From a bacterium (GTDB taxonomy: Bacteria; UBP14; UBA6098; 4484-93), in assembly GCA_021158465.1 (NCBI GenBank), contig JAGGUN010000011.1, positions 1 to 39,131 on the forward strand: DNA of 39,131 nucleotides, written 5' to 3'. A program made the position numbers and the translations under genes. Position 1 is the first letter of the stretch. Each line of letters opens with the position of its first letter. Shown here one piece after another: positions 30,610 to 36,230 of this stretch. The notes beneath the pieces were generated by a model. It had not been told where the DNA came from. It did not search any database and worked only from the letters and a program-made list of their open reading frames with translations.

Positions 30610-31218
30610 ATGAAGAGATTGCTTGCTGCAACCCAGAACCCTGGTAAACTGAGTGAGATAGTTTCCATCCTTTCTCCTTATGGATTCGATGTTACCTCTC
30701 CGTTGGAGCTTGGATTGAGGGTCGAGGTTGTGGAGGACGGGCGAAGCTTCCGCGAGAACGCCCTTAAGAAGGCTCTTGCTTATCACAGGGCGTCGGGTAT
30801 GCTCACGCTCGCTGACGACTCAGGGCTTGTGATAGATGCTCTCGACGGCGCCCCAGGGGTGCTGTCATCGAGGTTTCTGGGAGAGAAAACATCATACGCT
30901 GAGAAGATGAAAGAGATCCTCGAGACGCTTGAATCCGTCCCGGACGAGGAGAGAACCGCCAGATTCATATGCGAGGTGGCAATAGTCAAAGACGAAGATA
31001 ATATCTGGTTCGCCCATGGGGTGCTTGAGGGAACAGTCGCCCGCTCGCCAAGCGGAAAGGGCGGCTTCGGCTACGACCCGATATTCTACCTGCCAGATAC
31101 AGGGAAAACCCTGGCAGAACTGACTCCCAAAGAGAAGAACTCCATATCACACAGGGGGCAGGCACTCAGGGAAGCAGCGAGGATACTTGTAAGGCTCATA
31201 GAAACAGGAGAGATATAA
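30610..31218 (+). CDS. rdgB: XTP/dITP pyrophosphatase (RdgB/HAM1)
   Basis: The 202-residue enzyme shows [14 protein letters not shown] at the N-terminus, [18 protein letters not shown] (the metal-binding acidic loop), [14 protein letters not shown] and [10 protein letters not shown]. It hydrolyses ITP, XTP and their deoxy forms to monophosphates, keeping damaged purines out of DNA and RNA. It appears to start a new transcript, and its TAA shares a base with the murA ATG. Confidence 0.96.
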
Positions 31219-32480
31219 TGGACAAGTTTGTGGTAAGGGGAGGAATAGAACTTAACGGTTCGATCTCTGTTAGAGGTGCAAAGAACGCCATACTCCCGAT
31301 GATAGCAGGGGCACTACTTTTGGAAAAAGGGGAATGCATCATCCATAATGTGCCAGACATAAGTGATATCCGCAACTTTCTCAGCCTGATCGAGCTTCTC
31401 GGGGCAAAAAGCAGGTTCAACACAGAAGAGCGCACACTCATAATAAACGCCGAGAACCTATCCAATCCAGAGGCTCCATACGATATTGTCAGGAAGATGA
31501 GAGCGAGTTTCCTTGTGACAGGGGCTCTCCTCGCCAGATTCGGGCATGCCATGGTAGCTCTACCAGGCGGATGTTCAATCGGGGCAAGACCGGTGAACCT
31601 GCACATAGAAGGGTTTAAGAGACTGGGTGCAAAAATAACCGAGGAGAAAGGATACATCCTCGCTCAAGCCGACAAACTGAAAGGGAAGACCATATATTTT
31701 GACAGACCAAGCCACACGGGAACAGAGAACATTATGATGGCGGCGGCAAATGCTGAGGGGACAACCCGTATAATAAACGCTGCCTGTGACCCAGAGGTGA
31801 AAAGTTTTGCAGATTTCCTGAATTCGATGGGGGCAAAAATATATGGTGCAGGAACACCCTATATTATGATAGAGGGAGTGCCGTCCCTCTCTCCAACGGA
31901 GTTCACTCCGATAGGCGATAGGTTAGAGGCTGGGACATATCTCTACGGTGCCCTCATAACGGGCGGTGATATCGAGGTGTCGGGGGTCGATCCACAGCAT
32001 CTCGAGTTCCCACTCCTCAAGATGAGGGAGATGGGAGCAGAGATAAAAACAACATCATCTACCATCCGCCTGAGAATGCGAGGAAAACCGAAGAGTGTTA
32101 ACCTCACCACATTTCCTTATCCTGGGTTCCCGACCGACCTTCAGCCTATGGCTATGGTGGCAGCAACCATCTGCGACGGCACAAGCTACATCAGGGAAAC
32201 GGTGTTTGAGAACCGTTTCAATCATGTGATGGAGCTTATAAGACTTGGAGGGATGATCGCTGTGGCAGGCGATACTGCGACAGTCACCGGAACGGAAAAA
32301 CTCCGTGGGGCAGAGGTAATGGCATCCGATATAAGGGCAGGAGCAGCACTTACCCTCGCCGGACTTGTTGCCGATGGGAAAACAGAAATACTCAGAGTCT
32401 ACCACATCGACAGGGGATACGAAAGGCTCGAGGAAAAGCTCTCATCACTCGGAGCATCCATCGAGAGAACCCAACAGTAA
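31218..32480 (+). CDS. murA: UDP-N-acetylglucosamine 1-carboxyvinyltransferase
   Basis: The 420-residue enzyme has the expected EPSP-synthase-like double domain. Visible are [11 protein letters not shown] (Lys22-Asn23) and the active loop [14 protein letters not shown] with Cys119, the fosfomycin-reactive cysteine. Further motifs are [28 protein letters not shown] and the end [17 protein letters not shown]. It transfers enolpyruvate from PEP to UDP-GlcNAc, the first committed step of peptidoglycan synthesis. It overlaps rdgB by one base, and buk copy 1 starts 11 nt after its stop behind GGAGG. Confidence 0.97.
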
Positions 32481-32491
32481 GGAGGTGCAAT

Positions 32492-33562
32492 ATGGTCTAC
32501 TACATTCTGGTTATCAACCCAGGCTCGACCTCAACAAAGGTGGCGATATACGAAAACGACAGAGAGATAATATCAGGAAAGATAGAGCATCCAGCAGAGG
32601 AACTGGAGAAGTTTGACAGTATAGTTGACCAGCACGAGTATCGCGCCTCCGCGATTAAGGGTTTTCTGAAGGAGAAGAGATTCGATACGAAAAGGGTTTC
32701 TGCTGTTGTCGGCAGGGGGGGACTATTCAAGCCTCTTGAGAGCGGTGTGTATCGAGTGAACGAGGCGATGCTCGCGGACATAAGAGAAGGGAGGATGCAG
32801 GGACAACACATATCAAACATCGGGGCAATGCTTGCACACGACATCGCAGAAGAGATAGGTGTGCCAGCATTCATAGCCGACCCAGTCTCAGTCGACGAGT
32901 TCTGTGACCTCGCACGGGTCTCTGGACTCGCTGAGATACCGCGAATCGCCCTCCAGCACACACTGAATATTAAAGCGGTAGCGAGAGAGGTGCTTGCAAA
33001 GCACAACAAATCGCTTCAAGATGTAAACCTCATCGTTGCACACATAGGTGGAGGGATATCTGTATGTCCGCTCGAGCGCGGCAGGATTATAGACGCCAAC
33101 AACGCCATCCAGGAAGGACCGTTCTCACCAGAAAGAACCGGTGGACTCCCAACAGGACTGCTTGTTGACCTATGCTACTCCGGGAAATACACACACAAGC
33201 AGATGAAGAAGAAGCTCGTCGGGAACGGAGGGCTTGTCTCATACCTCGGTACAAACAATATGAAGGAACTGCGCAAACGGATCGATGAGGGAGATAAAGA
33301 GGCGGCATTCTACATCGAGGCTATGGCTTACCAGATAGCAAAAGAGATAGGTGCAATGGCAACGGTACTCAAGGGGAATATCTACCGTATCATCATAACC
33401 GGCGGTGGAGCACACTTCCCGTTCCTGCTGAAGAACATTATATCGAGGGTAAATTTTATCGCCCCCGTGGAGGTCTTCCCCGGCGAGCACGAGATGTACG
33501 CCCTTGCCACAAGTACAATCAGAGTACTAAAAGGCGAGGAAGGAGAGAAACGGTATGAATAG
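32492..33562 (+). CDS. Butyrate kinase family, copy 1
   Basis: The 356-residue ASKHA kinase shows VINPGSTSTKVAIYEND, VVGRGGLFKPLESG (Arg75), QHTLNIKAVAR (His156), VAHIGGGISV and GPFSPERTGGLP. Arg215 in the last motif corresponds to an essential catalytic Arg of acetate kinase. The family converts butyryl or branched acyl phosphate plus ADP to the acid plus ATP. The C-terminal GEHEMYALATSTIRVL departs from the usual ALAEGA.RVL. It follows murA and overlaps copy 2 by 8 nt (ATGAATAG). No phosphate acyltransferase gene is in the window. The substrate may be a branched or aromatic acyl phosphate. Confidence 0.93.
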   Translation: MVYYILVINPGSTSTKVAIYENDREIISGKIEHPAEELEKFDSIVDQHEYRASAIKGFLKEKRFDTKRVSAVVGRGGLFKPLESGVYRVNEAMLADIREGRMQGQHISNIGAMLAHDIAEEIGVPAFIADPVSVDEFCDLARVSGLAEIPRIALQHTLNIKAVAREVLAKHNKSLQDVNLIVAHIGGGISVCPLERGRIIDANNAIQEGPFSPERTGGLPTGLLVDLCYSGKYTHKQMKKKLVGNGGLVSYLGTNNMKELRKRIDEGDKEAAFYIEAMAYQIAKEIGAMATVLKGNIYRIIITGGGAHFPFLLKNIISRVNFIAPVEVFPGEHEMYALATSTIRVLKGEEGEKRYE

Positions 33563-34631
33563 AAGAGACCCGCTTATACTCGTTGTAAACCCAGGTTCGA
33601 CATCCACAAAGGTCGCTATATTCAAAGGGGACAAGGAGGTTGTATCGGAGAATATCGAGCACCCGAAGGAGGAGCTCGCACGGTTTGATCGGATAATCGA
33701 GCAGAAAGATTATCGTCGGAAGCTTGTGGAAACGGTCACCGATAAGCTGGGAATAAGGCTATCCGACATAAATATCGTGGTTGGAAGGGGTGGAGCACTC
33801 AAGCCTCTTGAGGGCGGTGTGTATCGGGTCTCGGAGAAGATGGTTAAGGATATCGAGTCTGGAAAGACTCAGGAACAGCATCCAGCGAACCTTGGGGCTG
33901 TTATAGCCTATGAAATAGCAACTCAAATCGGTGCCCCCGCCTATATAGTTGATCCCATTTCAACCGATGAGATGAGTCCAGTCGCAAAACTAACAGGGAT
34001 ACCAGGAATCAAAAGGCGCTCACTGACCCACGCGCTCAATGTAAAAGCCTGCGCAAGGAGGTATGCCCGCGAGGCAGGGATGAACTGGCTCGACTTGAAC
34101 ATAATCGTCGCACATCTGGGTGGCGGCATAACGGTCAATGCCGTCAAGAACGGCAGGATAGTCGATGTCTCCGATGCGCGCCAGGATGGTCCAATCGCTC
34201 CAACAGCAGCAGGCAAGGTGCCAGGACCAGAGCTCGCACGGTTTATCCGCAAATCGAACCTGACAGAAAAGCAGTTGGTCAAATTCTGGTTTGGCAAGGG
34301 GGGAGGAGTAGCACTCACAGGAACAGACAATGTTCGGGAACTGCTCGCAAGGAAGAAGAAAAAAGATAAGCAGGCAGAACTCTTCATTGATGCTCTGACA
34401 TACAGTGTTGCAAAGGAGATAGGCGCACTCTCAACCATCTTCAGGGGAAATGTGGACGCAATCATACTGACAGGCGGTCTTGCCCAATCCAGTGAGTTAA
34501 CCGAGGCGATAAAAAGATATGTCGAGTTCATCTCAGCTGTTGTCGTATATCCAGGAGAGTCCGAGATGGCAGCACTGGCAGAAGGTGGTATGAGGGTGTG
34601 GAACGGTGAGGAAAAAGAAAAACTGTATTAG
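33555..34631 (+). CDS. Butyrate kinase family, copy 2, with altered catalytic loop
   Basis: This 358-residue paralogue keeps LVVNPGSTSTKVAIF, VVGRGGALKPLEGG (Arg78), THALNVKACAR (His159) and VAHLGGGITV. It differs where copies 1 and 3 have PERTGGLP or PERSGGLP: here the loop is DGPIAPTAAGKVPG, so the catalytic arginine is replaced by Ala218. The nearby GNGG loop is also changed (GKGGGVALTGT, Lys248). The frame is intact and the rest well conserved, so it is not a decaying pseudogene. It may be a regulatory or structural partner, or use a different chemistry. Next gene starts 8 nt after its stop. Confidence 0.9.
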   Translation: MNRRDPLILVVNPGSTSTKVAIFKGDKEVVSENIEHPKEELARFDRIIEQKDYRRKLVETVTDKLGIRLSDINIVVGRGGALKPLEGGVYRVSEKMVKDIESGKTQEQHPANLGAVIAYEIATQIGAPAYIVDPISTDEMSPVAKLTGIPGIKRRSLTHALNVKACARRYAREAGMNWLDLNIIVAHLGGGITVNAVKNGRIVDVSDARQDGPIAPTAAGKVPGPELARFIRKSNLTEKQLVKFWFGKGGGVALTGTDNVRELLARKKKKDKQAELFIDALTYSVAKEIGALSTIFRGNVDAIILTGGLAQSSELTEAIKRYVEFISAVVVYPGESEMAALAEGGMRVWNGEEKEKLY

Positions 34632-34639
34632 GAGGGAAA

Positions 34640-35722
34640 ATGTTCAGAATCCTCGTTGTCAACCCGGGGTCAACCTCAACAAAGGTCTCACTCTTCGAGG
34701 AAACAAAAGAGCTCTTTACACAGGTGCTACGCCATACAGAAGAGGAACTGGCTCCGTTCCAGGATATAACCTCACAATACCAGTTCCGTGAAAAGATTAT
34801 ACTCAATTTCCTGAAGGAAAAGGATATCCCACTGGATACCCTCGATGCCGTTGTCGGAAGAGGTGGTCTGCTCTATCCGCTTGAGAGCGGAACTTACGAG
34901 GTCGACGATGTTATGATTGCTCATCTCAAGAAAGGCGTTCAGGGGCAACACGCCTCGAACCTCGGCGGGATACTGGCAAGAGAAATTGCCGAAAAAGCGA
35001 AGGCAAGAGCATTCATCGTTGACCCGGTGATAGTGGACGAGATGGACAAGGTAGCCAAGCTATCCGGCAACCCGAAGTTCACCCGAAGGAGTATATTCCA
35101 CGCACTTAACCACAAGGCGGTTGCCAGAAAGGCAGCGGCAAAACTTGGTAAGAAATACGAAGAGACAAATCTGATAGTGGCACATCTGGGCGGAGGAATA
35201 TCCGTTGGAGCGCACAAAAAGGGAAGGGTCGTCGATGTTAACAACGCTCTGAACGGAGACGGACCTTATGCGCCAGAACGCTCCGGTGGACTACCAGCAG
35301 GAGACCTGGTAAAACTATGCTTTTCTGGGAAGTACACACTCAAAGAGGTTATGCGTATGCTCCGCGGAAACGGAGGAGTGAGTGCATACCTCGGAACCCG
35401 CGACATTCGAGAGGTAGTAAAGAGGGTGAAATCGGGAGACGAGTATGCCTCACTCATCCTTGAAGGGATGGCATACCAGGTGGCAAAGGAGATAGGCGCA
35501 TTATCTACCGTGCTTGAAGGAGAGATAGACGCCATCATCCTGACAGGAGGGATCGCCTACAATGAATTCTTCACCCAGAAGGTAACAAGACGGGTCAAAT
35601 TCCTTGCTCCCGTTCTCGTTTATCCCGGGGAAGAAGAGATGAAAGCCCTGGCTGAAGGAGCATACCGAGTACTTACCAAGAAAGAGGTCGCCAAACGATA
35701 CCGCCCAAAAGAAACTACTTGA
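34640..35722 (+). CDS. Butyrate kinase family, copy 3
   Basis: The 360-residue kinase has all family motifs: LVVNPGSTSTKVSLFEE, VVGRGGLLYPLESG (Arg74), FHALNHKAVARK (His154), VAHLGGGISVGAHKKGRVVD, GPYAPERSGGLPAGDLVKL (Arg214), RGNGGVSAYLGT and YPGEEEMKALAEGAYRVL. Of the three copies it looks the most canonical. GGAGGG lies upstream of its ATG. It ends the rdgB-murA-buk run and overlaps the convergent 35715-36230 gene by 8 nt at the 3' end. Confidence 0.95.
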   Translation: MFRILVVNPGSTSTKVSLFEETKELFTQVLRHTEEELAPFQDITSQYQFREKIILNFLKEKDIPLDTLDAVVGRGGLLYPLESGTYEVDDVMIAHLKKGVQGQHASNLGGILAREIAEKAKARAFIVDPVIVDEMDKVAKLSGNPKFTRRSIFHALNHKAVARKAAAKLGKKYEETNLIVAHLGGGISVGAHKKGRVVDVNNALNGDGPYAPERSGGLPAGDLVKLCFSGKYTLKEVMRMLRGNGGVSAYLGTRDIREVVKRVKSGDEYASLILEGMAYQVAKEIGALSTVLEGEIDAIILTGGIAYNEFFTQKVTRRVKFLAPVLVYPGEEEMKALAEGAYRVLTKKEVAKRYRPKETT

Positions 35723-36230
35723 GTAGCAGCATCTTCCTGGTGCTATGAAACTCTCCAGCTTGAAGCGTGTAGAAGTAAACTCCACTCGGAAGTTCACCAG
35801 AATCGAAGTTCACAATATATGAACCAGCAGGCTTTTTCTCATTAAGCTCATACACCTTCTCACCCACAACATTGTAAATAGTAAAACGAACCTCCGACTC
35901 CTTCGGCAGGTCAAACCTGATAACAGTCCTCGGATTGAACGGATTTGGGTAGTTCTGCGAGAGCGAGAAACTCTTCGGAATCGAGGCATCTTTGTCCTCT
36001 TCAATTCCGACCATGAGACCTGCAACAGCCGTTATATATCCTGCCTGATTCCTGTAAAGGGCACCACCAGCCTCATCTATAACCGCCTGCCCGATGGAGG
36101 CGAGATTATTATACGAACCATCCGACACAATACCACCACCGTTGTCCATAACATGGGGATACTCATTGTAAGCCCACAGAAAACCCGCTAAAACAAACAA
36201 AACCACCACAGCCAATATAATACTTCTCAT
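35715..36230 (-). CDS. Small exported protein with type IX-secretion-like C-terminal domain
   Basis: The 171-residue protein has a signal peptide (MRSIILAVVVLFVLAGFLWA) and a short mature region of about 60 residues (MDNGGGIVSDGSYNNLASIG-type). A C-terminal domain of about 80 residues follows: FSLSQNYPNPFNPRTVIRFD, VRFTIYNVVGEKVYEL, GELPSGVYFYTLQAGEF and a basic end RKMLLLK. This is the FlgD-like / Por-secretion sorting domain typical of FCB bacteria. The DNGGG...SIGQ element also recurs in proteins of such genomes (from memory). The cargo is tiny, so the protein is little more than a signal and a sorting tag. Confidence 0.88.
   Translation of the reverse strand: MRSIILAVVVLFVLAGFLWAYNEYPHVMDNGGGIVSDGSYNNLASIGQAVIDEAGGALYRNQAGYITAVAGLMVGIEEDKDASIPKSFSLSQNYPNPFNPRTVIRFDLPKESEVRFTIYNVVGEKVYELNEKKPAGSYIVNFDSGELPSGVYFYTLQAGEFHSTRKMLLLK

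Follow-up and report, generated by a model that had tools for sequence, protein, structure and literature searches.

Three butyrate kinase genes lie side by side in the 39,131-nucleotide stretch of bacterial DNA analyzed here (the window), and the protein encoded by the middle one, copy 2, lacks a catalytic arginine of acetate kinase. Has copy 2 become an inactive partner of its neighbors, as a sequence-only reading of the window had proposed, or is it still an enzyme, and if so, acting on which acceptor?

The catalytic arginine of the middle gene

The genes concerned are:

31218-32480, + strand: murA (open reading frame and spacing), ending 11 bases before copy 1
32492-33562, + strand: copy 1, an ordinary butyrate kinase with PERTGG (motif EGPFSPERTGGLP); TIGR02707 score 481.5 bits
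33555-34631, + strand: copy 2, an Arg-less butyrate kinase (R218A); TIGR02707 score 414.1 bits
34640-35722, + strand: copy 3, an ordinary butyrate kinase with PERSGG (motif DGPYAPERSGGLP); TIGR02707 score 543 bits

All three copies score above the curated TIGR02707 cut-off of 289.1 bits and, judged by this criterion, copy 2 belongs by descent to the butyrate kinase family. The first 8 bases of copy 2 are also the last 8 of copy 1, and a gap of 8 bases separates copy 2 from copy 3; copies 1-3 are packed as a probable operon, and murA and copy 1 probably form one transcription unit. Third-position G+C is similar across murA and the three copies (0.52-0.57), and murA matches were also present in eight relatives searched. 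Convergent with the array is a gene (35715-36230, - strand) whose short product carries a C-terminal sorting domain of type IX secretion. The host genome contains no butyrate kinases other than copies 1-3, together with one acetate kinase homolog, and its two phosphate butyryltransferase-like genes lie on a different contig from the array.

Copies 1 and 3 carry PER[TS]GG, whereas the corresponding region of copy 2 (34179-34226) reads RQDGPIAPTAAGKVPG, with the following replacement:

34206-34208, + strand: codon GCA for Ala218, replacing the catalytic arginine (Arg241 of Methanosarcina or Arg243 of Salmonella acetate kinase)

When phmmer was run against PDB chains, Ala218 aligned with the arginine of MGTRSGD in Thermotoga maritima acetate kinase, and a profile of the Arg-less group likewise aligned residue 218 with the arginine of Salmonella AckA. 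Since the two alignments agree, the equivalence of residue 218 to Arg241/Arg243 holds. In acetate kinase, this arginine touches the carboxylate/transferring phosphate. In Salmonella AckA, Arg243 is listed as contacting both acetate and the nucleotide (PMC3475010). Arg241 of the Methanosarcina enzyme has been called essential, an R241A mutant having a kcat that is 0.4% of wild type, and loss of the equivalent arginine leaves 3.9% of the activity in Porphyromonas (PMC6461089). Activity in these mutants was thus lowered rather than abolished, which counts in favor of copy 2 being a working kinase.

The replacement is rare and isolated. Among 181 butyrate kinase homologs, drawn from the host's own phylum, Spirochaetota, Synergistota and a broad sample, residue 218 is Arg in 175, Ser in four, Thr in one and Ala only in copy 2. 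We defined 38 columns as near-invariant (conserved in 95% or more of the Arg-bearing butyrate kinases), and copy 2 retains 37 of them, being altered at residue 218 alone; that the single change should fall precisely on the catalytic arginine is more than chance would suggest. Within the active-site arginine pair (equivalents of Arg91 and Arg241), Arg78 is present and only residue 218 has become alanine. Asn12, Lys19, His109, Asp133, His159, His187, Glu335 and Glu337 are also kept. The earlier reading had described an altered loop, the loss of the Arg241 equivalent, an intact frame and survival of the other motifs, and each of these observations is borne out.

An Arg-less lineage in two phyla

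The same reading had raised the conservation of the change as a point to check, and the arginine proves to be missing also from four orthologue-like spirochaete proteins (L035, L036, L095 and L124), all of which have PTSCG at the site. Trees were built without the alignment columns covering the motif (207-222). Copy 2 and the four spirochaete proteins were monophyletic in a tree of 83 rows (SH-aLRT 98), and the same five-member clade was recovered in a more careful tree of 78 rows from which long branches had been removed (bootstrap/SH-aLRT 100/98); on the latter tree the state of residue 218 changes once. The spirochaete forms keep 35-36 of the 38 near-invariant columns. These comparisons assign copy 2 to a subfamily of Arg-less butyrate kinases that is distinct, conserved, rare, old and present in two bacterial phyla, so that the loss of the arginine is not a recent lesion. 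As the clade has one evolutionary origin, the residues that its five sequences known here share count as one event.

The three copies have different affinities. Copy 1 was placed with "PQRCG"-type butyrate kinases of its own phylum (nearest L049, L062 and L048, among others), and copy 3 grouped with L066, L050, L053, L044 and L063 (clade support 100/97). Topology tests rejected a clade of copies 1+2+3 (p-AU 2.7e-5) and one of copies 2+3 (p-AU 0.0009); a clade of copies 1+2 was marginal (p-AU 0.064). The array therefore probably brings together three lineages instead of being the product of recent duplication, and the two ordinary lineages, those of copy 1 and copy 3, sit on separate contigs in relatives.

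These results bear on two simple accounts of the missing arginine. One is that copy 2 is a tandem duplicate on its way to becoming a pseudogene, as the loss of one catalytic residue in a three-gene array might suggest. However, the three copies fall in different lineages, so copy 2 is not a decayed duplicate of its neighbors, 37 of the 38 near-invariant columns are retained, and the same loss has become fixed in another phylum. This account is largely refuted, and we consider it very improbable. The other is an error of sequencing or assembly, for which a short CAACAGCAGCAGG run at the motif could be cited. Yet the frame is unbroken, the motif reappears in none of the other frames, and Thr217, Arg209 and the loss of the arginine are common to the relatives. 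Because at least two base changes are needed to turn the Arg codon into an Ala codon, and because Arg-less relatives occur in other genomes, a sequencing slip does not explain the change, and an artefact is scarcely credible. Decay and artefact are both nearly excluded.

In the spirochaete order to which L036 belongs, the Arg-less gene was found in all four genomes examined, at 638-680 bits with the Arg-less profile, scores that are favored by the inclusion of the spirochaete members in that profile. The same four genomes also contain an ordinary butyrate kinase (369-382 bits), one in each, on a contig other than that of the Arg-less gene; in G061 a further contig carries an equally scoring match. 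An ordinary butyrate kinase thus accompanies the Arg-less form in every host genome, and the separate contigs in the spirochaetes indicate that an operon partnership is not common to the clade. In L035 (3477-7871, + strand) and L036 (3480-8008, + strand), the Arg-less kinase gene has a phosphoglucomutase-type gene on one side and tyrS on the other, and kal and kce follow downstream. Lysine fermentation was considered as a common theme, given kal and kce near these two genes, and was rejected because the window's genome has no BKACE family protein.

Beyond these hosts, the Arg-less profile found no further member among 385 broadly sampled genomes, the best match after the window scoring 420.8 bits and having the arginine, and none among 188 Synergistota genomes (best match 396.4 bits), so the clade is rare in the genomes searched. 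A close ortholog of copy 2 was also absent from 15 relatives of the same class, the butyrate kinases of which join the groups of copy 1 or copy 3 or fall elsewhere, with the arginine present wherever the site is covered. A genome of the same genus gave no butyrate kinase match; there the murA match spans only residues 1-376 of 420, so that the locus may be cut off and the absence is uninformative.

Changed residues at the acyl pocket

The catalytic residues listed above, Arg78 included, are invariant throughout the five-member clade, as is the NPGSTSTK loop. Nine further residues are invariant in the clade and occur in less than 10% of proteins elsewhere: Ile100, Ile135, Lys153, Thr158, Cys166, Asn195, Arg209, Gln210 and Lys233. 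Three of them fall in two short segments in or next to the acyl pocket, for which Ala181, Pro234 and Arg243 are among the residues listed as acetate-binding in Salmonella AckA (PMC3475010):

34026-34031, + strand: Thr158, at the pocket position Phe179/Ala181, followed by the phosphoryl-transfer histidine His159 (His180/His182)
34179-34184, + strand: Arg209-Gln210, clade-invariant (5/5, together with Ala/Ser218), in the loop of the acetate-pocket proline; Arg209, nine residues upstream of the lost arginine, is a candidate to compensate for it

Thr158 occurs in 1.1% of the Arg-bearing set. Arg209 is found in five of the six Arg-less proteins, versus two of the 175 that retain the catalytic arginine. 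Because the five carriers represent a single origin, this association is suggestive rather than statistical proof, and because the two exceptions (L188 and L037) carry both arginines, Arg209 is not strictly a replacement. Its register against acetate kinase also depends on the alignment: with phmmer it falls on the pocket proline, and with the Arg-less profile it falls two residues before the proline, which is then in an insertion. Lys221 of the TAAGK sequence was considered as another source of compensating charge and discarded, not being conserved within the clade.

An AlphaFold2 model of copy 2, made from a 65-row alignment, had a pLDDT of 95.9 and a pTM of 0.91, and Foldseek superimposed it on butyrate kinase 2 (1x9j) with a TM-score of 0.96 and an rmsd of 1.3. 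The butyrate kinase ASKHA fold of copy 2 is thus predicted to be intact.

With the arginine lost, Arg209-Gln210 and Thr158 gained, and the residues for nucleotide, metal and phosphoryl transfer all intact, we propose that copy 2 has a rebuilt acyl pocket. The explanation that we favor, at about even confidence and from comparison of sequences, is that copy 2 works as an acyl kinase, perhaps a slow one, on an acceptor other than butyrate, Arg209 possibly acting as a partial substitute. Copy 2 would bind Mg-ATP/ADP and pass phosphate between the nucleotide and a short-chain carboxylate that is either different from butyrate and isobutyrate or more polar, while Arg209 would reach into the site and restore part of the lost charge. 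Its gene would have been inserted between two ordinary butyrate kinase genes, or set next to them, and is probably co-expressed with both. A bolder form of this explanation holds that the clade is a new type of acyl kinase: its second catalytic arginine would have shifted nine residues within the same loop, from the Arg241 position to Arg209, and the acceptor would have changed with it; on the residue patterns described here, we regard that as possible but doubtful.

Copy 2 might instead be simply a slow butyrate kinase, catalyzing its neighbors' reaction on their substrate at a rate that the missing arginine lowers some 25- to 250-fold, and kept for dosage or slow flux. The residual activity of R241A-type mutants (0.4-3.9%; PMC6461089) would fit, as would the overall similarity of copy 2 to butyrate kinases, above the TIGR02707 cut-off. 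However, selection across a divergence spanning two phyla has excluded the arginine while fixing other changes in the pocket, and two ordinary copies already adjoin copy 2, so we rate this explanation as improbable.

Comparison with known enzymes and a partner role

Butyrate kinase 2 of Thermotoga maritima (1SAZ, 1X9J; TIGR02707 / NF002834) is 41% identical to copy 2 and has the same length, fold (TM 0.96) and motifs. Relative to the family as a whole, copy 2 differs in having Ala218 for the PER[ST]G arginine and in its atypical Arg209-Gln210 and Thr158. The acetate kinases of Methanosarcina thermophila and Salmonella (PF00871) belong to the same superfamily and share the active-site residues of copy 2 apart from the arginine, although identity is only about 20%, Arg241/Arg243 is replaced by Ala in copy 2, and the loop preceding it is two residues shorter.

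The reading of copy 2 as a pseudokinase holds that it folds and binds nucleotide without catalysis, and that it tunes the activity of copies 1 and 3 by assembling with them into hetero-oligomers. An essential arginine is missing; the genes are arranged head to tail with their 8-base overlap and 8-base gap; an ordinary copy is present wherever the Arg-less copy occurs; and acetate and butyrate kinases are generally oligomers. There is also a precedent in t6A synthesis, where TsaB is an inactive ASKHA-fold paralog that serves as the partner of TsaD. TsaB is without the ligand-binding residues, however, and copy 2, unlike TsaB, keeps them.

What an eroded member of the family looks like can be seen in a Synergistaceae genome with multiple copies, G063, which also holds two ordinary butyrate kinases:

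L094, 1363-2556, + strand: butyrate kinase fold family, without the arginine (Thr); adjoins a phosphate butyryltransferase-like gene
L037, 3465-4583, + strand: butyrate kinase fold family; like L094, without the nucleotide loop and further catalytic motifs

These two proteins have lost the nucleotide loop (NPGST replaced by FPHSE or YPKSY), Arg78 and the glycines of AHLGGG, all of which copy 2 retains. They keep 21 (L094) and 30 (L037, which has the arginine) of the 38 near-invariant columns, versus 37 in copy 2. A pseudokinase of this family would be expected to show such losses, which copy 2 does not, and by their sequences L094 and L037 are better candidates for that role.

Two further arrangements of butyrate kinases were seen. 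In the host's own phylum there are fused proteins of 734-768 amino acids with a butyrate kinase as the C-terminal half (L047, 3218-5482, - strand; L052, 2385-4586, - strand; L056, 1602-3812, + strand; L060, 123-2426, + strand). The N-terminal half of the L047 protein matches phosphotransacetylase families, and fusions of this type look, from their sequences, like bifunctional phosphotransbutyrylase-butyrate kinases. Many Synergistota (e.g., G498:C78, G480:C21 and G483:C62) have two butyrate kinase genes about 2 kb apart, with phosphate butyryltransferase-like genes beside them in the loci fetched.

Of the sequence-only reading, then, the loss of an essential-type arginine stands. The partner role that it had attached to that loss fares less well: all of the other catalytic and ligand residues are kept, His159 and Arg78 included; new clade-specific residues, Arg209-Gln210 among them, have appeared at the acyl pocket; the two genes are unlinked in the spirochaetes; and many genomes get by with one butyrate kinase, so that no partner is needed. 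On balance, we consider a partner role unlikely, although it is the most serious competitor of a working kinase with a rebuilt pocket. Our search of the literature, which covered mostly open-access papers, found no Arg-less or pseudoenzyme butyrate kinase and no inactive paralog of acetate kinase. Were copy 2 a partner after all, it would be, judged from that literature, the first pseudokinase regulator to be described in the acetate/butyrate kinase family.

For annotation, the Arg-less proteins pass the curated cut-off and are automatically named butyrate kinase, so that their substrate or their fermentative role is probably misassigned. For the family, a conserved lineage that is without an arginine called essential, yet retains all else and has a new arginine nearby, is a natural test of how far acyl kinases need that residue for their mechanism. 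If the arginine has indeed been relocated, the reaction would have been kept while a supposedly essential residue moved.
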